Below are positions 2,816-22,914 of a DNA stretch of 22,914 nucleotides, in pieces. The notes under the pieces are model-generated. The model did not search any database. It was not told the origin of the DNA and saw only the letters and a list, made by a program, of their open reading frames with translations. The stretch is from a virus, in the IMG/VR virus record IMGVR_UViG_3300009149_000305, positions 1-22,914 of that record; one strand, written 5' to 3'. The position numbers were made by a program, and so were the translations under genes. How positions within the stretch are numbered: the stretch's first letter is position 1; each line of letters opens with the position of its first letter.

Positions 2816-3214
2816 ATGAAGATAACCGCTGACATGCTGCGCGAGCACAACGCTTGCCAGGGCCAGGTCAAGAGATTCGAGGCCGAATGGCCGGACGGTG
2901 TGCGGGTGACGCTGAAAGCCTGCAAGCGGGCGGTGGAGCTTGGGCTGGACCTGGACTGGGCGGCGGAGAACCTGCTGTCAGCGGACGCCGGGACGGTATA
3001 CGACGCCGCCACAGTGGACGCCTGGGAGGTATACAACGCCGCCATAGCGGACGCCGGGACGGTATACGACGCCGCCACAGTGGACGCCGGGACGGTATAC
3101 GACGCCGCCACAGTGGACGCCTGGGAGGTATACGACGCCGCCACAGTGGACGCCTGGGAGGTAGAAGACGCCGCCATAGCGGACGCGTTCTACCGGGCGG
3201 CGAAGATAGCATAA
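2816..3214 (+). CDS. Tandem 11-residue repeat protein (unknown function)
   Basis: A 132-residue protein, first gene after the strong promoter, with AAGGAGG before its ATG. Residues 1-56 form a domain recurrent in phage and bacterial proteins of unknown role (start MKITADMLREHNACQGQ, then a LGLDLDWAAENLL segment). From residue 57 (base 2984) it consists of six 11-residue units, DAGTVYDAATV or DAWEVYDAATV/DAWEVEDAAIA, plus a seventh partial one. At DNA level these are near-identical 33-bp tandem repeats. Because 33 is a multiple of three, several other frames stay open here; they are shadows. The Ala/Asp-rich repeats probably form a helical or solenoid-like rod. Function unknown. Confidence 0.8.
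   Translation: MKITADMLREHNACQGQVKRFEAEWPDGVRVTLKACKRAVELGLDLDWAAENLLSADAGTVYDAATVDAWEVYNAAIADAGTVYDAATVDAGTVYDAATVDAWEVYDAATVDAWEVEDAAIADAFYRAAKIA
2984..3181 (+). repeat. 33-bp tandem coding repeats, six copies
   Basis: Six consecutive 33-bp units begin at 2984, 3017, 3050, 3083, 3116 and 3149. Two alternating types are visible: gacgccgggacggtatac-type (units 1, 3, 4) and gacgcctgggaggta-type (units 2, 5, 6). The near-identity of nucleotides suggests recent expansion by slippage or unequal recombination, and copy number may vary between relatives. Confidence 0.9.
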
Positions 3215-11440: not shown

Positions 11441-13633
11441 ATGGGCGCAGTAGCGATTGACGACTATCAATCATTCCTGGCCGGCAAGCAGATGCTCGCA
11501 CCAGCGGCGGGACCGACCATCGCACCGGAGCAGGTTCATCCGATGTTGTTTCCGTTTCAGCGGGACATTGTCTGCTGGGCGGTGCGGAAGGCCCGGTGCG
11601 CAGTGTTTGCCGATACCGGCCTCGGCAAGACGTTTATCCAGATAGAGTGGGCCAGGCTCTTGGGGTGCCCTACGCTAATCATTGCTCCTCTGACGGTGGC
11701 GCGGCAGACAGTCAAAGAGGCAGCGAAGATTGATGTGGTCGTTCAGTATGCCCGTAACCAGGGCGAAGTGACGGCCCCCATCGTCATTACGAACTATGAA
11801 ATGATTCAGCATTTCGACCCCGCCAAGTTCGGGGCAGTGATTCTGGACGAGTCCAGCATCCTGAAAGCGCTGGACGGCAAGACGCGGCAGAAGCTGACGG
11901 ACATGTTTCAGAACACGCCGCATCGCCTCTGCTGCACAGCGACGCCAGCCCCCAACGATAGGGCGGAGATTGGCAATCACTCGGAATTCCTTGGGGTAAT
12001 GACACGCTCGGACATGCTCAGCAGCTTCTTCGTGCACGATGATGACGGCTGGCGACTGAAGGGCCACGCACAGGATGCGTTTTTCCGGTGGCTTGCTTCG
12101 TGGTCATTGAGTATCTGCACGCCCAGCGATCTGGGCTACGATGATGACGGATTCATTCTGCCTGCGCTGACGGTCGATGCCGTGCTGGTCGATGTCGCCG
12201 GGGCACTGGAGGGGCAACTGTTCTTTACCGGGCTGAAGGGTATCCAGGACCGGTTGCGCGTGCGTCAGGCTACCGTTGATGTGAGGTGTCAGCGTGTAGC
12301 CGATCTGGTCGATGATGATGACGGGCAATGGATCATCTGGTGCGGGCTCAACAAGGAAAGCGATCTGATAACGAAGCTCATACCAGATGCCGTGCAGGTG
12401 AAGGGCACACAGACGCCCGAATCAAAGGCGCAGACTATCGAGGCGTTTCAGGACGGTGAGATCCGCGTGCTCGTGACAAAGCCGAAGATCGCCGGCTTCG
12501 GCATGAACTTCCAGAACTGCCATAGCATGGCTTTCGTGGGCCTGTCGGATTCCTGGGAGGCGTATTATCAGTGTATTCGCCGCTGCTGGCGATTCGGGCA
12601 ACAATCCCCGGTAACCACCTACGTTGTGCTGTCGGATTGGGAGGCCGAAATCTACGCGAACATCATGCGGAAAGAGACGCAGAATCAGAAGATGCGCCGG
12701 TATCTGATCGAGCACGTCCAGGAGTTCGAGACCAAGGAGTTGGCGAACATGGTGCAGGACTGGAAATATGAAACGGACCAGACCGATGGCGATGGTTATA
12801 CCTGGATGCTGGGCGATTCGGCGGAACGCGTTGCTACCGTTGAGCCCGACAGCGTAGGGCTCAGCGTGTTCAGCCCGCCGTTTCTGTCACTCTACACATA
12901 CACCCCCACCGAGCGGGACGTTGGCAACGGGCGCACCGTTGCCGAGTTCTACGACCACATGAGATACATCAGCACGGCGCTACTGCGCGCGACAATGCCA
13001 GGTCGGTTGGCCTGCGTCCACGTTGCCCAGGTGCCAGCCATGCTGGTGCGCGACGGATACATCGGCATGAAGGACTTCAGGGGCAAGACCATTGAGCACT
13101 TCCAGGAAGCGGGCTGGATCTATCACGGGGAGGTCTGTATTGACAAAGACCCGCAGGCGCAGGCCATCCGCACAAAGAGCAAGGCGCTCCTGTTCACCCA
13201 GCTCCACAAAGACGCCTCATGGCTGCGGCCCGCACTGGCAGACTACATCCTCGTATTTAGGAAGCCTGGCGAGAACCCGGTGCCTATCAAGCCGAGCATC
13301 ACGAACAATCAATGGATCGAATGGGCGCGACCCATCTGGTATGGGATCAACGAGACGGACACGCTCAACAAGGCCGAGGCGCGCGAGGAACGGGACGAGC
13401 GCCATATCTGCCCGCTGCAGCTCGAGACGATTCGGCGATGTGTGCTCCTGTGGAGCAACCCCGGAGATCTGATCTGTGACCCGTTCGGGGGGATCGCAAG
13501 TACCGGGTATGTGGCGTTGACAGAAGATCGGCAATTCATCGGCTGCGAGCTGAAGGCAAGCTACTATCAGGCAGGTGTGCGCAACTTGGCGCGGGCCATC
13601 GCGACAAAGGAACAACATTCGCTGTTCGCATAA
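11441..13633 (+). CDS. SNF2-type helicase fused to a beta-class DNA methyltransferase
   Basis: A 730-residue protein; GGGGAGGG precedes the ATG. Residues 35-440 are an SF2/SNF2 helicase: DTGLGKT (58-64, Walker A), LDESS (135-139, motif II), TATPAPND (166-173, motif III) and QCIRRCWRFGQ (377-387, motif VI). Residues 450-715 are a DNA methyltransferase with permuted motifs: SPPF (478-481, catalytic motif IV) comes before DPFGGIASTG (680-689, SAM-binding motif I), as in beta-class N4-cytosine/N6-adenine enzymes. SPPF favours N4-cytosine, but N6-adenine cannot be excluded. Both parts look intact. No restriction nuclease is nearby, so protection of phage DNA against host restriction, possibly with ATP-driven tracking along DNA, is the likeliest role. 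No 20-residue insertion or frameshift is seen. Confidence 0.92.
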   Translation: MGAVAIDDYQSFLAGKQMLAPAAGPTIAPEQVHPMLFPFQRDIVCWAVRKARCAVFADTGLGKTFIQIEWARLLGCPTLIIAPLTVARQTVKEAAKIDVVVQYARNQGEVTAPIVITNYEMIQHFDPAKFGAVILDESSILKALDGKTRQKLTDMFQNTPHRLCCTATPAPNDRAEIGNHSEFLGVMTRSDMLSSFFVHDDDGWRLKGHAQDAFFRWLASWSLSICTPSDLGYDDDGFILPALTVDAVLVDVAGALEGQLFFTGLKGIQDRLRVRQATVDVRCQRVADLVDDDDGQWIIWCGLNKESDLITKLIPDAVQVKGTQTPESKAQTIEAFQDGEIRVLVTKPKIAGFGMNFQNCHSMAFVGLSDSWEAYYQCIRRCWRFGQQSPVTTYVVLSDWEAEIYANIMRKETQNQKMRRYLIEHVQEFETKELANMVQDWKYETDQTDGDGYTWMLGDSAERVATVEPDSVGLSVFSPPFLSLYTYTPTERDVGNGRTVAEFYDHMRYISTALLRATMPGRLACVHVAQVPAMLVRDGYIGMKDFRGKTIEHFQEAGWIYHGEVCIDKDPQAQAIRTKSKALLFTQLHKDASWLRPALADYILVFRKPGENPVPIKPSITNNQWIEWARPIWYGINETDTLNKAEAREERDERHICPLQLETIRRCVLLWSNPGDLICDPFGGIASTGYVALTEDRQFIGCELKASYYQAGVRNLARAIATKEQHSLFA

Positions 13634-16699: not shown

Positions 16700-18037
16700 A
16701 TGCGTACAGGCAAATGGAGCAAGCGGCGAGGGCCGCATCAGATACAAGCGCCACGCCGGAAGGTCGTCATGCCAAGTCCCATGCCGGTCGAGGGCGGCAA
16801 GGCCGCGCAGGATGCCGGGCCGGGCTGGGAGGTCGTGTTCGGCCAGAACAACCCGACCGATTGGCAGAACGCCAACGCCATCTGGGACCAACTCACATCT
16901 GCCCAGCTTGAGGTGATCTATCGCAACTCAGCGCTGGTGTATGGCTGCGTGCGGGAGGTCACCACGACGCTGGCCGAGGCGCCGCTGACGGTGGGCCGCG
17001 AGGTGGACGGCGAATGGGAGATCGTGCCCCACCCGCTTGACGCGATATTCGATGCGCCAACGCCAGACTATGACTACAACGAGTGGCTATACCTGTTCTG
17101 TTCGCGGTTGCTGTTGACGGGGCGCAGCTTCATCTGGAAGTTCCGCCAGGCCAGTGGCATGATCGGCGAGCTATGGCCGTTGCCCACGAACATGGTCAAG
17201 CCGATTCGCGGGACGGCAGAGGACAGGGGGCAGGTGATCAGCCGCCTGGTGCGTGGATATGAGATCAATCAGGGATTCAACCAGACGCCCAAGATGGCGC
17301 CGGCGGTAGACATGACCGACGCTCGGTTCCCCGATCCGGCCAGGACTGATGGTGGCGTTGGCCCCATGCAAGCGGCGTCGCGGGACTATCAGCTTGACCG
17401 TGGCCGTGAGGACTACCTGATAGAGATGCTGACGAACCTCAAGGTTCCCGGCATGGTGGTGCGATCCAGCCTGCCAGTGCCCACCAGCGAGAAGGATGCC
17501 ATCCGGGCGGACCTCCACAACCGGGCCGGACACGGCGCGCGCGGTGGCCCGGTGTTCCTCAGCGGGCCAGACGCGGATATCAAGATGCTAGCGCCTCTGG
17601 CTGATATGGACTGGCCGGGCTTCGCCGGCATGGAGGAGAGCCGGATCTGCATGGCGTTCGGTGTGCCGCCTATCCTGGTGGGCGCCCGCGTGGGGTTGGA
17701 GAGCGCCACGTACTCGAACTATGGCCAGGCCCGCAAGTCATTCTACACCGAGACGATGTCGCCGCTGTGGGCCGCCATACAGGGCGTGCTCACCCGGTCC
17801 CTGTTGCGTCATGAGGGTGACGATGCGCTGGAGATACGGTTCGATCTGACGGACGTTGCCGGCCTGCAGGAGGACGCGAACGAGATCGCCGTCCGTGCCT
17901 CTACGCTATTCAGTGGCGGGATCATCACACTGAACCAGGCGCGGGCATTGATAGGGCAGCCGGGCGTGGGGTCCGCAGGTGACGTGCGGCGCATCCCGAT
18001 CAACATCTCCGAAGAGCCCATAGGGGGTGGCGGCTGA
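16700..18037 (+). CDS. Portal protein (HK97 family)
   Basis: A 445-residue protein. The ATG at 16700 directly follows the terminase stop; an ATG at 16769 with GGAAGG upstream is an equally possible start, as the intervening residues are basic and unlike the family. The family signature is clear: YRNSALVYGCVREVTTTLAEAPL-type helix (about 74-96, shown in part: CVREVTTTLAEAPL), PHPLDAIFDAP (112-122), LYLFCSRLLLTGRSFIWK (130-147) and MVKPIRG. Later, FGVPPILVGARVGLESATYSN (about 319-339, in part GVPPILVGARVG) is the clip/stem motif. It forms the dodecameric ring at one vertex. The next gene overlaps its TGA by one base (TGATG). Confidence 0.93.
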   Translation: MRTGKWSKRRGPHQIQAPRRKVVMPSPMPVEGGKAAQDAGPGWEVVFGQNNPTDWQNANAIWDQLTSAQLEVIYRNSALVYGCVREVTTTLAEAPLTVGREVDGEWEIVPHPLDAIFDAPTPDYDYNEWLYLFCSRLLLTGRSFIWKFRQASGMIGELWPLPTNMVKPIRGTAEDRGQVISRLVRGYEINQGFNQTPKMAPAVDMTDARFPDPARTDGGVGPMQAASRDYQLDRGREDYLIEMLTNLKVPGMVVRSSLPVPTSEKDAIRADLHNRAGHGARGGPVFLSGPDADIKMLAPLADMDWPGFAGMEESRICMAFGVPPILVGARVGLESATYSNYGQARKSFYTETMSPLWAAIQGVLTRSLLRHEGDDALEIRFDLTDVAGLQEDANEIAVRASTLFSGGIITLNQARALIGQPGVGSAGDVRRIPINISEEPIGGGG

Positions 18038-19797
18038 TGCCACTACCGACGCCCAATAGCGGGGAGAGCCAGGGTGATTGGATTACGCGATGCGCCTCCA
18101 ACGAGGCGATGCTCGACGAGTACCCGGACCGCCAGCAGCGGCTGGCCGTGTGTCATGGCCTCTGGCGCGGGGGAAAGGCCACTGCACGGTCGCGGCGGGA
18201 GCAACTGCGATACTACGCAGAGTTCCGTTCTGAGATATCTGATACGTGGCTACCCAAGTATAAGGCCGCCGTCCAGAAGGAGCTTGCCCGCCAGGCGCGC
18301 GAGGTTGTGGCCGCTGTGGCTGAGGATGCGCCACTTGAGAGTCTGCAGGGCGAGTGGGCGGAGCGCCTGTTTCAGGTCCAGCGGCCTATGGCCATAGAGA
18401 TGGCTGTGGAGGGTTACCAGTTGGCGGAGGCAGAGTTCGGCAAGACCGGTGGCGTGGCGGCTATCCAGGCCAAGCAGGCAGAGACAATCGCAGCGTTTGA
18501 CCGCGCAGAACTGCTCGCAACGCACCTGGCCCCGGACGTGGACCGATGGCTGCGGACGGTTACTACCAAGATGTCTGACACAACCCTGACAGAGGCTGTG
18601 ATGCAGGTGGACCGCGCCAGGGAGGCGGCTCTGACCGGTGCGGAACTATCGCGCACGCTCCGCACTGCGCTGGTGGCGCGCAGCAAGACAAGGGCCGATC
18701 TGGTAGCGCGCTCCGCCACAATCTGGAACTACAACCAGGGCGCGAAGATGCTCTATCAGGACGAGGGCGTGGCCGTGCTGGAATGGCTGGTAACGCAGGA
18801 CGACGTTCTGTGCGAGTTCTGCGAGCCATTCGACGGCCGGCAGATCGAGATCACGGGCAGCTTTGTAGCGGGCGGCGAGACTGTTCCGGGCAGCCGTGGC
18901 GGCAGCCTGACTCCGGCGCTTGGCGTTGAGCATCCGCCGTTACATCCGAACTGCGTCGTGGGTGAAACGCCCGTCCTTGCCCCTGATAAGATCGCCGCAT
19001 TTATCACCCCCTACTGCGGCCCGATAGTCGAGATTGGCTTTGCCGATGGCCGTAGGCTCACCGTCACCCCGAATCACATGCTCCTCACGTCCTACGGCTT
19101 TGCCAAGGCAGCGAGCCTGCGCGAGGGAGACCAGATATGCCACAGCCCCTTCGGTGATAGGATAGTCGCGGGTCACCCAAATGATGACGGTGAGCCAGCC
19201 CCGATCCGCGAGGTAATCGATGCGTTTGCGGAATCGCGCGGCGTGTCGGCCCGTCGTGTGCCAGTGGCCCCCGAATATCTCCACGGCGATGGCCGATTCT
19301 GTGATGGCGACATCGACGTTATAGCGCCCGACAGCTTTCTGAATGACGGTCTTGATGCCATGCCGAGCGAGGCGGTCCGCCAAGCGTGGCTCGCTGGGGC
19401 CGACACCAATGTGCCGCCTCTGCCGGGTATCCGCCCCCTTGCAGAGGCTTTCCTCTGTGCGGCTGCTACCGCGGACCGCATCATGGGCGGCCGCAGAGAG
19501 TCGCTGGCGTTCAGCCGGCGTGGCCTGAGCCATCCGCAGGAACATGGCCTGGCTGCGGGTGCGGGGGCTGATACCGGCCTCCAGGAGACGGCGCCGGATG
19601 GCCTTGCGGTCGCACTTACACAGCTCAGCAAGGGCGTTTTCCGAAACGCCAGATCGGTACATTTCGCAGACGTAGCGAGCATCGAGCTCAAGTCGTTTAC
19701 CGGACATGTCTATGACCTCCAAACGTTTTCGTCATTATACACTTGCAATGGGCTGGTGGCAAGCAACTGTCGATGTGCAATCGTGCCTGTAGTATGA
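18037..19797 (+). CDS. Phage head morphogenesis protein (SPP1 gp7/Mu F-like) with in-frame intein
   Basis: A 586-residue precursor whose start overlaps the portal stop (TGATG). Residues 1-48 (SQGDWITRCASN, DRQQRLAVCHGLW) are a small N-terminal domain seen in several phage head proteins. Residues about 205-305 carry the MuF/gp7 core: WNYNQGAKMLYQDEGVAVLEWL, split here into WNYNQGAKML and GVAVLEWL, then CEFCEPFDG, then PPLHPN. The expected HPNCRC motif is interrupted: HPN is followed by a 272-residue intein (306-577), then CRCAIVPVV. After splicing the mature protein would have 314 residues and an intact HPNCRC motif. It acts in head assembly near the portal. Confidence 0.88.
   Translation: MPLPTPNSGESQGDWITRCASNEAMLDEYPDRQQRLAVCHGLWRGGKATARSRREQLRYYAEFRSEISDTWLPKYKAAVQKELARQAREVVAAVAEDAPLESLQGEWAERLFQVQRPMAIEMAVEGYQLAEAEFGKTGGVAAIQAKQAETIAAFDRAELLATHLAPDVDRWLRTVTTKMSDTTLTEAVMQVDRAREAALTGAELSRTLRTALVARSKTRADLVARSATIWNYNQGAKMLYQDEGVAVLEWLVTQDDVLCEFCEPFDGRQIEITGSFVAGGETVPGSRGGSLTPALGVEHPPLHPNCVVGETPVLAPDKIAAFITPYCGPIVEIGFADGRRLTVTPNHMLLTSYGFAKAASLREGDQICHSPFGDRIVAGHPNDDGEPAPIREVIDAFAESRGVSARRVPVAPEYLHGDGRFCDGDIDVIAPDSFLNDGLDAMPSEAVRQAWLAGADTNVPPLPGIRPLAEAFLCAAATADRIMGGRRESLAFSRRGLSHPQEHGLAAGAGADTGLQETAPDGLAVALTQLSKGVFRNARSVHFADVASIELKSFTGHVYDLQTFSSLYTCNGLVASNCRCAIVPVV
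18940..19707 (-). CDS. Vsr-like (EDxHD-type) homing endonuclease, antisense within the intein
   Basis: A 255-residue protein. I start at ATG 19707, with GGAGG (19716-19720 on the minus strand) eight bases upstream, and stop at TAA (18942-18940). Residues 11-45 are an HTH (SGVSENALAELCKCDRKAIR, LLEAGI). Residues 47-80 (SPRTRSQAMFLRMAQATPAE, RLSAAAHDAVRG) are the helical module typical of intron/intein endonucleases. Residues 100-195 are a PD-(D/E)XK fold of the Vsr type: PSEPRLADRLARHGI (E106), YNVDVAI (D132), AVEIFGGHWH (E143, H148, H150) and KRIDYLADRGWLTVIIWV (D164). The last 60 residues, antisense to the intein N-domain, look like read-through. Codon boundaries coincide exactly with the sense codons. 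It would cut intein-less alleles for homing. Confidence 0.85.
   Translation of the reverse strand: MSGKRLELDARYVCEMYRSGVSENALAELCKCDRKAIRRRLLEAGISPRTRSQAMFLRMAQATPAERQRLSAAAHDAVRGSSRTEESLCKGADTRQRRHIGVGPSEPRLADRLARHGIKTVIQKAVGRYNVDVAITESAIAVEIFGGHWHTTGRHAARFRKRIDYLADRGWLTVIIWVTRDYPITEGAVAYLVSLAQARCLGKAVGREEHVIRGDGEPTAIGKANLDYRAAVGGDKCGDLIRGKDGRFTHDAVRM
18952..19767 (+). mobile_element. Intein in the head morphogenesis protein
   Basis: The intein runs from C306 to N577 of the precursor (272 residues). Block A is CVVGETPV (306-313). Block B is LTVTPNHMLLT (341-351) with the TxxH of splicing, T344-P-N-H347. Block F is GHVYDLQTFSSLYTCNG (556-572), and block G is LVASN (573-577) followed by extein +1 Cys. 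The penultimate residue is Ser instead of the usual His, which may slow Asn cyclisation but is tolerated in some inteins. Between blocks B and F (about 372-548), the sense translation resembles no endonuclease. The same DNA encodes one on the other strand. Confidence 0.9.
19734..19762 (-). promoter_or_regulatory. Promoter for the antisense homing endonuclease
   Basis: On the minus strand: TTGCCA (19762-19757), 17-base spacer, TATAAT (19739-19734). This is 11 of 12 consensus bases with ideal spacing, and start of transcription would fall near 19727, seven bases before the GGAGG of the endonuclease gene. On the sense strand the same bases encode intein block F-G and the last intein residues. 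Confidence 0.75.
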
Positions 19798-19809: not shown

Positions 19810-19839
19810 TTGACACGGAATGTGGGAGGCAAATAGAAT
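19810..19839 (+). promoter_or_regulatory. Candidate promoter at the protease/capsid boundary
   Basis: TTGACA (19810-19815), 18-base spacer, TAGAAT (19834-19839): 11 of 12 consensus bases. Transcription would start near 19846, just after the ATG at 19838, so a transcript from here would use ATG 19847 or 19856, or serve mainly the capsid gene. Confidence 0.5.
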
Positions 19840-20233
19840 GGGTGCCATGCCAGCGATGATCGATAGCACTGAACGCCGCACGTTGGCCCTGCGGGACATC
19901 GACCTGACATTCGGCCCGGAGGCAAAGGCCAATGCCGAGTCGGGGTGGCTGGAAGGCTACGCTAGCGTATTCAATGTCGTGGACCAGCAGGACGAGGTCG
20001 TGCGGCCGGGGGCGTTCCTCAAGACGATTGATGAACGTGTAGCCGCGGGCAAGGTCAAGCTGATGACGATGCACATGGCCTGGGCGGCGACACGATGGAG
20101 GTCGTGGGCACCATTACGCAGGCCAAGGAAGATGATCGTGGCCTGTGGATACATGCCGATTTCGCGTCCACCGACCATGCGCAAGAGGCCCGGAAGCTGG
20201 CTGTCGAGGGCCACGTGTCCGGCCTGTCCATAG
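19838..20233 (+). CDS. HK97-family prohead protease, N-terminal part (frameshifted)
   Basis: ATG 19838 with GGGAGG upstream. The reading frame matches the family to about residue 80: TLALRDIDLTFG, then GWLEGYASVFNVVDQQDEVV with RPGAFLKTIDER, then VKLMTMHMAW, which holds the expected catalytic His. After the His the frame goes wrong and runs to a stop at 20233 as meaningless basic sequence. The correct continuation is one base back, in the frame of the fragment from 20095. The C-terminal about 50 residues of this fragment are therefore not expected in the real product. See the second fragment and the finding on the frameshift. Confidence 0.7.
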   Translation: MGAMPAMIDSTERRTLALRDIDLTFGPEAKANAESGWLEGYASVFNVVDQQDEVVRPGAFLKTIDERVAAGKVKLMTMHMAWAATRWRSWAPLRRPRKMIVACGYMPISRPPTMRKRPGSWLSRATCPACP

Positions 20234-20592
20234 GCTACAACGCCATCGCGGCCGCGCCGTTGACGGAAGATGGCAAGACGATTATCGAGCTGACAGAGCT
20301 ACGTCTGCTCGAAGTAACGCTGACAGCCCGGCCGGCCAACGAACTGGCTGCTGTGACTGCGGCGAAGGAACTGGCATTAACGGTTCAGCGCGTGGACTCG
20401 CTTGCACCCGAAGAGGGCCGCGAGTTGTCCACTCAAGACCTGGACCGTCTCACTGCCTGCCGGGCTGCCTGTGAGGCGCTTGGCGGCAAGATAGACGCGC
20501 TGTTGACGCCGCCTGACACCGGGGATGATACCCCGACCGCCGGACACGCCGACCTGGATGCGCGCAGGAAGTGGCTGCAACTTCAGATATGA
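20095..20592 (+). CDS. HK97-family prohead protease, C-terminal part (frameshifted)
   Basis: This frame continues the protease after the frameshift. Upstream codons in the same frame read GLGGDTMEVVGTI, so it extends back past the ATG at 20095. It carries ITQAKEDDRGLWIHADF, EARKLAVEGHVSGLSIGYNA with the catalytic Ser in LSIGY, and ELTELRLLEVTLTARPANE, all typical of family S78 proteases. No ribosome binding site precedes 20095. The C-terminal 60 residues are helical and polar. A working protease is needed to mature the head; together the two frames would make about 250 residues. It cleaves the scaffold-like N-terminus of the capsid protein encoded next. Confidence 0.75.
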   Translation: MEVVGTITQAKEDDRGLWIHADFASTDHAQEARKLAVEGHVSGLSIGYNAIAAAPLTEDGKTIIELTELRLLEVTLTARPANELAAVTAAKELALTVQRVDSLAPEEGRELSTQDLDRLTACRAACEALGGKIDALLTPPDTGDDTPTAGHADLDARRKWLQLQI

Positions 20593-22086: not shown

Positions 22087-22182
22087 ATGAAGTGGAAGAA
22101 TGCGATATACCGGCTCTGGGCAAGCTGTCGCCGCGCATGGTCGTTTATATTCGACACGGCCAATCCGTACGGAGACTGCTGA
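22087..22182 (+). CDS. Small ORF, 31 residues
   Basis: ATG 22087 with GGAGGGG seven bases upstream. The product starts MKWKNAIYRLWASCRRAWSF and continues IFDTANPYGDC: aromatic, basic, possibly membrane-associated or amphipathic. Third positions in this frame are mostly G or C, as in neighbouring genes. An alternative 36-residue frame from ATG 22083 is too close to the ribosome binding site and has poorer codon pattern. Function unknown. Confidence 0.5.
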   Translation: MKWKNAIYRLWASCRRAWSFIFDTANPYGDC

Positions 22183-22210
22183 CCGCCAACTGAACGGAGG
22201 GATAGGTGGC

Positions 22211-22914
22211 GTGTGGTTTCGAGCACTGAAAGAGTTCGGCTATCTGACGCCGATGGGCGTCAAGCAAGTCATACATCCGGGTCAGCTTGTCGATGTCCTG
22301 CAGCGGGACGTGTCTGAGAGGCTGCTGGCCCGGGGTGCGATCATACCGAAGAATCAGAGCCACGCGTCTATCATCCGGCTGGGCCAGGCTGCCTCGCCCC
22401 ATCTGCGGACAAAGCGTATCGGCCTGTTCATCTCCACGTCGCCGAACTACTCCGGCGGCCGGCTCCACATGTATCAATACGCCATTGCAATGGTACGGAA
22501 CGGGGCGGAGGTCTGGCTGATCACCAATGCAAGGCCACGGTGGGCGAATGACTATGAGACGCCGGGTGGACTGCACCTTACGATCCTGGGGCAACACCCG
22601 ATACCGCCGGACTTCGATATCGTCATGACCGATTCGAAGGTGGAGTTTGGGCGGGAAGCGCACGAATGGGCTCAGAGATATCCGCATATCCCGTTCGTCT
22701 GTTTCAACTTCGAGACACCGAACTGGGTCACGAAGTACGCGCCGGCCTACGCGAAGCGGCTGGCAGGCGGTGGTATCCGGGAGACGTTCCAGGCCGCGGA
22801 CGTGGTATTCGCCAACTCCTCAGAGAGCCTCCGGCACTGCATTGAGTGGCTGGGCACCAAGCCGGTCACGGGCGTCCTGCCGCCTGCGGTGAACACCGAC
22901 GCGCTTGCGCATCC
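22211..22914 (+). CDS. GT4-like glycosyltransferase (3' partial)
   Basis: GTG 22211 after GGAGGG (spacing ten); an in-frame ATG at 22253 is an alternative. The frame is open to the window end (234 residues). Residues 14-47 (PMGVKQVIHPGQLVDVL, VSERLLARGAI) resemble a small stand-alone phage domain ending in '...RLxxRGA'. From about residue 65 a GT4/GT-B N-terminal domain starts: KRIGLFISTSPNYSGGRLHM then YQYAIAMVRNGAEVWLIT, with FVCFNFETPNW and ADVVFANSSESLRHCIEW. The nucleotide-sugar-binding C-terminal half lies outside the window. Sitting after the capsid gene, it suggests glycosylation of virion proteins or of a host surface. Confidence 0.8.
   Translation, partial: MWFRALKEFGYLTPMGVKQVIHPGQLVDVLQRDVSERLLARGAIIPKNQSHASIIRLGQAASPHLRTKRIGLFISTSPNYSGGRLHMYQYAIAMVRNGAEVWLITNARPRWANDYETPGGLHLTILGQHPIPPDFDIVMTDSKVEFGREAHEWAQRYPHIPFVCFNFETPNWVTKYAPAYAKRLAGGGIRETFQAADVVFANSSESLRHCIEWLGTKPVTGVLPPAVNTDALAH

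Follow-up and report, generated by a model that had tools for sequence, protein, structure and literature searches.

Where does the homing endonuclease of an intein reside when the sense reading frame between its splicing blocks B and F resembles no endonuclease? The question is raised by a 22,914-nt stretch of viral DNA, hereafter the window (IMG/VR virus record IMGVR_UViG_3300009149_000305, positions 1 to 22,914), whose head morphogenesis gene carries such an intein and whose minus strand holds a second long ORF in the same DNA. The highly probable answer is that the intein is mobile and has its homing endonuclease encoded by an independent gene on the other strand, which occupies the insert between blocks B and F (Table 1).

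Table 1. Features of the intein locus in the window and of the second antisense nuclease ORF (locus L146)
Feature	Position	Strand	Basis
MuF-like head morphogenesis gene, 586-aa precursor with intein inside	18037..19797	+	phrog_15127, weak Phage_Mu_F
Intein, C1 to N272, continuous in sense, insertion HPN^CRC	18952..19767	+	splicing-family and Hint/intein fold matches
N-terminal splicing part, blocks A and B, TPNH; sense-coding substitution signature	18952..19131	+	substitution pattern, model
C-terminal splicing part, blocks F and G (GHVYDL...VASN)	19690..19767	+	aligned relatives, model
Antisense ORF including stop, 255 aa, HTH and Vsr-like/EDxHD-type nuclease, predicted homing endonuclease	18940..19707	-	family and fold matches
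Part of antisense gene under antisense-strand selection, residues 1-192	19132..19707	-	substitution signature
Two-strand constrained segment, sense 109-119 (YLHGDGRFCDG) opposite antisense 134-144 with E143	19276..19308	both	redraw test, distant members
Shine-Dalgarno GGAGG, 8 nt upstream of ATG 19707	19716..19720	-	sequence; SD enrichment in relatives
-10 element TATAAT of antisense promoter	19734..19739	-	sequence; enrichment in relatives
-35 element TTGCCA, 17 bp from -10	19757..19762	-	sequence; enrichment in relatives
Antisense ORF of L146 intein 1, 376 aa, repeated CxxC units (zinc-finger-like array) and DUF559	L146:4452-5582	+	

The intein of the head morphogenesis gene

The genes of the window follow the order terminase-like ORF, portal, head protein, prohead protease and capsid, the terminase label being given by gene order, without a family match. 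The head protein ORF matches the phrog_15127 head protein family (1.9e-29) and, weakly, Phage_Mu_F. It has no stop anywhere along its length, and the intein that it encloses is delimited by C1 at 18952 (HPN^CVVGETPV) and by N272, which ends at 19767 (VASN^CRC), in line with the original prediction of an intein open in sense from block A to block G. The intein features Hint splicing blocks, C1 and a terminal N followed by a residue of the C/S/T set, and is continuous with the host protein. Its match to the Intein_splicing family PF14890 (E=2.5e-7) lies, for this member alone, under the curated cut-off; the family is matched by 37 of 38 related sense inteins at E<=0.01 (best 1.5e-16), and the splicing ends C1...N^C are intact in 38 aligned inteins. 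Judged from these features, the window intein would splice itself out of the head protein. Both splicing parts lie on one continuous ORF, not on separate genes as the halves of a split intein do.

The insert between blocks B and F had been described as unlike any endonuclease, and the model of the sense intein agrees with this. The splicing blocks are modelled at pLDDT near 90 and residues 129-155 and 173-215 fall below 50. The significant Foldseek matches of the model are inteins, aligned via their splicing domains. No in-frame endonuclease was found between blocks B and F by family search, structure model or Foldseek, and the sense insert has no recurrent family match across the related inteins. 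Intein surveys restricted to the sense frame would label such inteins endonuclease-less and immobile. For a Methylococcus prophage, the intein of the Mu F homologue has been described in these terms (PMC517821).

The antisense gene and its product

The minus-strand ORF starts with the ATG at 19707 and ends with the stop at 18940. It had been proposed to code for a 255-residue protein composed of an HTH and a Vsr-like nuclease, an assignment that profile searches and structure prediction uphold. The protein matches MTES_1575 (1.4e-7, under the curated cut-off of that model) and, weakly, DUF559. Among 47 aligned antisense relatives MTES_1575 is matched by 40, DUF559 by 9 and Vsr by 3, and many match HTH models. 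Compared to the PDB, the profile of the antisense family finds 3hrl (2e-5), I-Bth0305I (0.014, a weak match over the catalytic domain) and Vsr (0.06). The AlphaFold model, built with 40 sequences (pLDDT 87.4), features an N-terminal HTH and an alpha/beta nuclease core with a Vsr-like fold; its first Foldseek match is the catalytic domain of the I-Bth0305I homing endonuclease (PDB 3r3p, 7.6e-4), and ranks 1-4 are all occupied by I-Bth0305I and Vsr chains. Two observations had been named beforehand as contradicting the prediction, the lack of a Vsr-like match for the antisense protein and an endonuclease fold in the sense frame; neither emerged from the searches and models.

Residues E106, Y129, D132, E143, F145-G147, W149, H150 and R162 are fully or almost fully conserved across the 40-member antisense set and are all kept in the window protein. 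E106, D132, E143 and H150, conserved in the family, are candidates for the EDxHD residues. The FGGHWH motif is absent in a few relatives (Vivi2, Sejanus, ES2, BR313c), so that some antisense copies may have lost activity. More distant relatives occur as free-standing homing endonucleases, for example in Rhizobium phage RHph_TM61, to which the pairwise match is weak (E 0.4). The window antisense protein is, on the basis of its sequence and model, probably a homing endonuclease that spreads the intein.

Coding on two strands

The sense and antisense frames are in exact codon register. The only stops that one frame imposes on the other are TTA, CTA and TCA, hence both frames can stay open by avoiding three codons. 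Since the window also holds other antisense ORFs of 442 aa and 358 aa, an open antisense frame alone proves little. The antisense ORF could thus be a by-product of the sense gene, arising from GC-rich register overlap, with a tblastn similarity that mirrors sense conservation; besides the two other long ORFs, the fact that the antisense frame is the register-aligned one in all loci speaks for such an origin. Its likelihood is reduced to almost nil by the nuclease family and fold matches, which are significant, and by the following observations on relatives of the locus.

In a first IMG/VR scan the sense register frame was free of stops in 52 of 52 loci, the other two frames having stops; in loci re-read from a second, profile-based scan, which overlap those of the first, it was open in 78 of 78. 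Over 51 non-redundant loci (35-70% GC) no sense stop was observed against 247 expected from local codon usage, and the arrangement persists in genomes of 35-45% GC. Among the pairs listed, differences follow antisense codon positions in the order 3>1>2 and identity is higher in antisense than in sense, in every pair. The 47 aligned relatives display an antisense-coding substitution pattern over antisense residues 1-192, followed by a sense pattern: differences at the three codon positions average 0.52/0.43/0.64 over antisense residues 1-196 and 0.62/0.38/0.49, the sense pattern, over residues 197-240. In 12-residue bins the signature flips between antisense residues 192 and 193, at about window position 19131, which is exactly the end of the N-terminal splicing part of the intein. 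The recognisable part of the nuclease, foreseen as residues 1-195, therefore fills the gap between blocks B and F nearly exactly, and the antisense tail (residues 193-255), which overlaps the splicing blocks, shows sense-strand selection.

Conservation was also compared to a null in which the protein of one strand is kept fixed and synonymous codons are redrawn. Antisense residues 17-192 are conserved far above their null; on the sense side an excess over the null is found mainly in the splicing part and in a single short segment. The antisense substitution signature, the absence of sense stops, the flip and this redraw test led to the rejection of the mirror-artefact and chance-ORF readings. 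Antisense coding is beyond chance, as family and fold matches, recurrence, substitution signature, stop absence and promoter/SD enrichment (see below) establish together.

The short segment is the HGDG region. Sense residues 111-113 have a conservation of 0.80-0.92 versus the 0.23-0.27 dictated by the antisense protein under synonymous redraw, and HGD or a near form is kept in distant members (near form in Keitabear, REQ3, RCIP0015 and KMB36). With sense residues 81-127 modelled at pLDDT about 85, these data leave some room for a functional domain in the sense insert, for instance centred on HGDG, in which case the locus would be a true two-protein overlap and the insert not mere filler. Such a domain is judged unlikely: the excess of sense conservation is small elsewhere in the insert and near zero over most of intein residues 125-236, the insert lacks a recurrent family match, and its fold matches are to inteins or Hint domains only. 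Moreover, the register fixes the nucleotides by both readings, so a sense peptide cannot be told apart from a DNA or RNA motif, which the HGDG segment could be instead. An insert that in sense is mostly filler remains the preferred reading.

Promoter and ribosome binding site in blocks F and G

The original prediction of a GGAGG at ideal spacing and of a TTGCCA-N17-TATAAT promoter can be read directly in the window, and in relatives these elements are enriched over synonymous recoding. The -35 element of most close relatives is TTGACA, compared to TTGCCA in the window. As null for promoter and Shine-Dalgarno elements, the sense codons of blocks F and G were redrawn synonymously. Exact TATAAT occurs in 22 of 47 loci versus 1.9 expected, and a Shine-Dalgarno match of 5 or more in 27 of 47 versus 7. 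The same bias is seen in individual codons under this redraw: the Leu of VYDL is CTC in 31 of 39 cases (9 expected) and the Leu ahead of Tyr/Cys is TTA in 14 of 19 (2 expected). A perfect TTGACA-N17/18-TATAAT is present in 27 of 97 loci versus 0.03 expected, with a maximum of 1 in 200 redraw runs, and occupies the same place in nearly all loci; in these promoter counts the loci are related and do not represent independent trials, but variable codon positions are close to saturation. The antisense gene would be expressed from its own sigma70 promoter, which, lying inside the intein, would move along with it.

Distribution in phages and other DNA

Inteins with this antisense gene, whose search in other phage genomes had been suggested, proved widespread. 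Relatives of the antisense gene were found in IMG/VR at 52 loci in the first scan and at least 577 in the profile-based scan, and in 127 GenBank phage records; the related head gene (query: Salmonella phage PhiSTP2) is present in 663 such records. Phages with the unit infect Gordonia, Mycobacterium, Salmonella, Escherichia, Klebsiella, Pseudomonas, Vibrio, Pantoea and others. The search of host chromosomes yielded 2 loci in GTDB contigs, and a 369-genome sample of one class gave one of these (G001) and one weak match (L159). With so few host-chromosome loci the unit seems to belong chiefly to phages. In the filled phage records inspected for their annotation, the antisense ORF is listed in PK2 only, as a hypothetical protein.

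Some copies differ in site or integrity. Mycobacterium phage Sejanus (L057) has such an intein at another head-protein site, before CTIDGKTRPSHW, and its antisense nuclease is among those that have lost FGGHWH. In Salmonella phage GE_vB_HIL (L153), whose record carries the mark UNVERIFIED, apparent frameshifts and stops disrupt the intein in both readings. A portal-MuF fusion ORF (L141:3216-7406, minus strand) carries two differently built inteins: the one in the portal part has an in-frame LAGLIDADG, the one in the MuF part has the antisense gene.

Mobility

Empty and filled sites were compared in Jersey/Kaguna-type phages in place of the window phage, for whose own N-extein the search found no relatives and thus no empty site. 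The head gene is uninterrupted in PhiSTP1 and SETP13 (1044 nt) and carries the intein in PhiSTP2, STP-1, VSe101 and PK2 (1860 nt), the two forms differing by exactly the 816-bp intein. VSe101 (Salmonella) and Snoke (E. coli) have inteins that are 96% identical, compared to 72% for extein DNA. Empty sites together with inteins more alike than their exteins support a recent movement of the intein. The flanks of STP-1, PhiSTP1 and PhiSTP2 were considered as a conversion tract and this was rejected: longer flanks form a general mosaic, and the flanks are for this reason not used as proof of homing.

The antisense protein might also be produced and no longer engage in homing, having been domesticated, for example to regulate the head gene through transcription of the antisense strand or to act against rival phages. 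A strong antisense promoter within a late gene could regulate that gene, and catalytic motifs are altered in some relatives. Recent movement, as suggested by the close relatives, and the conservation of all invariant residues in the window copy make domestication very unlikely.

A mobile intein with an opposite-strand homing endonuclease is thus retained as the preferred reading, for which the following course can be proposed. The head gene would be transcribed and translated with the whole intein, whose insert would be mostly unconstrained filler in sense, and the intein would excise itself from the head protein at HPN^CRC. The sigma70 promoter and ribosome binding site embedded in the codons of blocks F and G would drive synthesis of the antisense HTH-nuclease. 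The nuclease would then cut the uninterrupted site in the head gene of another phage, co-infecting or resident, and recombinational repair off the intein-bearing copy would transfer the unit. Cutting of the uninterrupted allele and homing by the antisense nuclease are here predictions from sequence comparison.

A second antisense nuclease

At locus L146 one head protein (ORF L146:3408-6407, minus strand) has two inteins. The second carries the same antisense gene family as the window. The first, bounded as DDRVC^F..HN^CPVC, carries a different antisense ORF, whose 376-aa product matches DUF559 (4.2e-8, above the curated cut-off) and resembles free-standing Hef-like homing endonucleases of Campylobacter phages. 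No relatives of this nuclease were found in viral_contigs beyond itself, and the second case is represented by this one locus. Its different build suggests that the antisense architecture arose at least twice. It is fairly likely that antisense homing endonucleases form a recurrent mobile-intein architecture, next to in-frame endonucleases and to split inteins accompanied by a free-standing gene, defined by a complete antisense gene within a continuous sense frame in codon register and by a promoter and Shine-Dalgarno in splicing-block codons, with at least two origins and with HGDG/IAVE selected on both strands.

Comparison with known systems

The window unit shares with inteins that have an in-frame endonuclease (PI-MtuI, PI-PkoII) the Hint blocks at both ends, the precise in-frame insertion at a conserved site and an endonuclease carried between blocks B and F. 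It differs in that the endonuclease is Vsr-like, not LAGLIDADG, and is coded on the other strand from a promoter and start of its own, outside the spliced protein. Split-intein loci can carry a free-standing EDxHD gene between the halves. They have in common with the window an EDxHD-type gene tied to an intein, whereas the nuclease gene of the window overlaps a continuous intein and is not flanked by intein halves.

I-Bth0305I, the best Foldseek match of the antisense model, has been described as a group I intron endonuclease (PMC3943268); the window nuclease, in contrast, lies antisense within an intein and carries an HTH at its N-terminus. The ShiLan domain is an HNH endonuclease hidden out of frame in a phage methylase, on the same strand (PMC11855218). 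Its insertion, too, can be read through in the host frame and encodes the nuclease in a different frame, but no splicing domain is detected there, while the window unit has one and its nuclease is Vsr-like and on the opposite strand. Nuclear group I introns have homing endonuclease genes in antisense (PMC9548176) and are thereby similar in placing the endonuclease antisense inside a self-splicing element. They are RNA introns in rDNA, so that their sense strand need not stay open for translation; in the window, by contrast, both strands are protein-coding.

A continuous intein with an antisense nuclease gene had been held to be undescribed. The literature search found no earlier description of an antisense endonuclease in an intein; a preprint by Gosselin et al. 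2025 (10.1101/2025.01.02.630785), whose title refers to a non-canonical architecture, may cover part of it. The architecture shows a way for a selfish intein to carry an endonuclease that is expressed and folds independently of the host protein. For the study of two-strand coding it also offers many natural pairs of completely overlapping antisense genes, with a recognisable fold in both products.

Other observations in the window

The prohead protease (Peptidase_S78; 19820-20592) extends across two frames that overlap each other, 19820-20233 and 20095-20592, which may reflect a frameshift, a sequencing error or a programmed shift. A single ORF (11441-13633) joins an SNF2-type helicase to an N6/N4 DNA methylase. 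Glycosyltransferase genes are found at both ends of the window, of family 9 with a methyltransferase domain (61-1815) and of family 4 (22100-22912). A small ORF at 2816-3214 contains short near-identical repeats (DAATVDAWEVYDAATVDAGTVY...).
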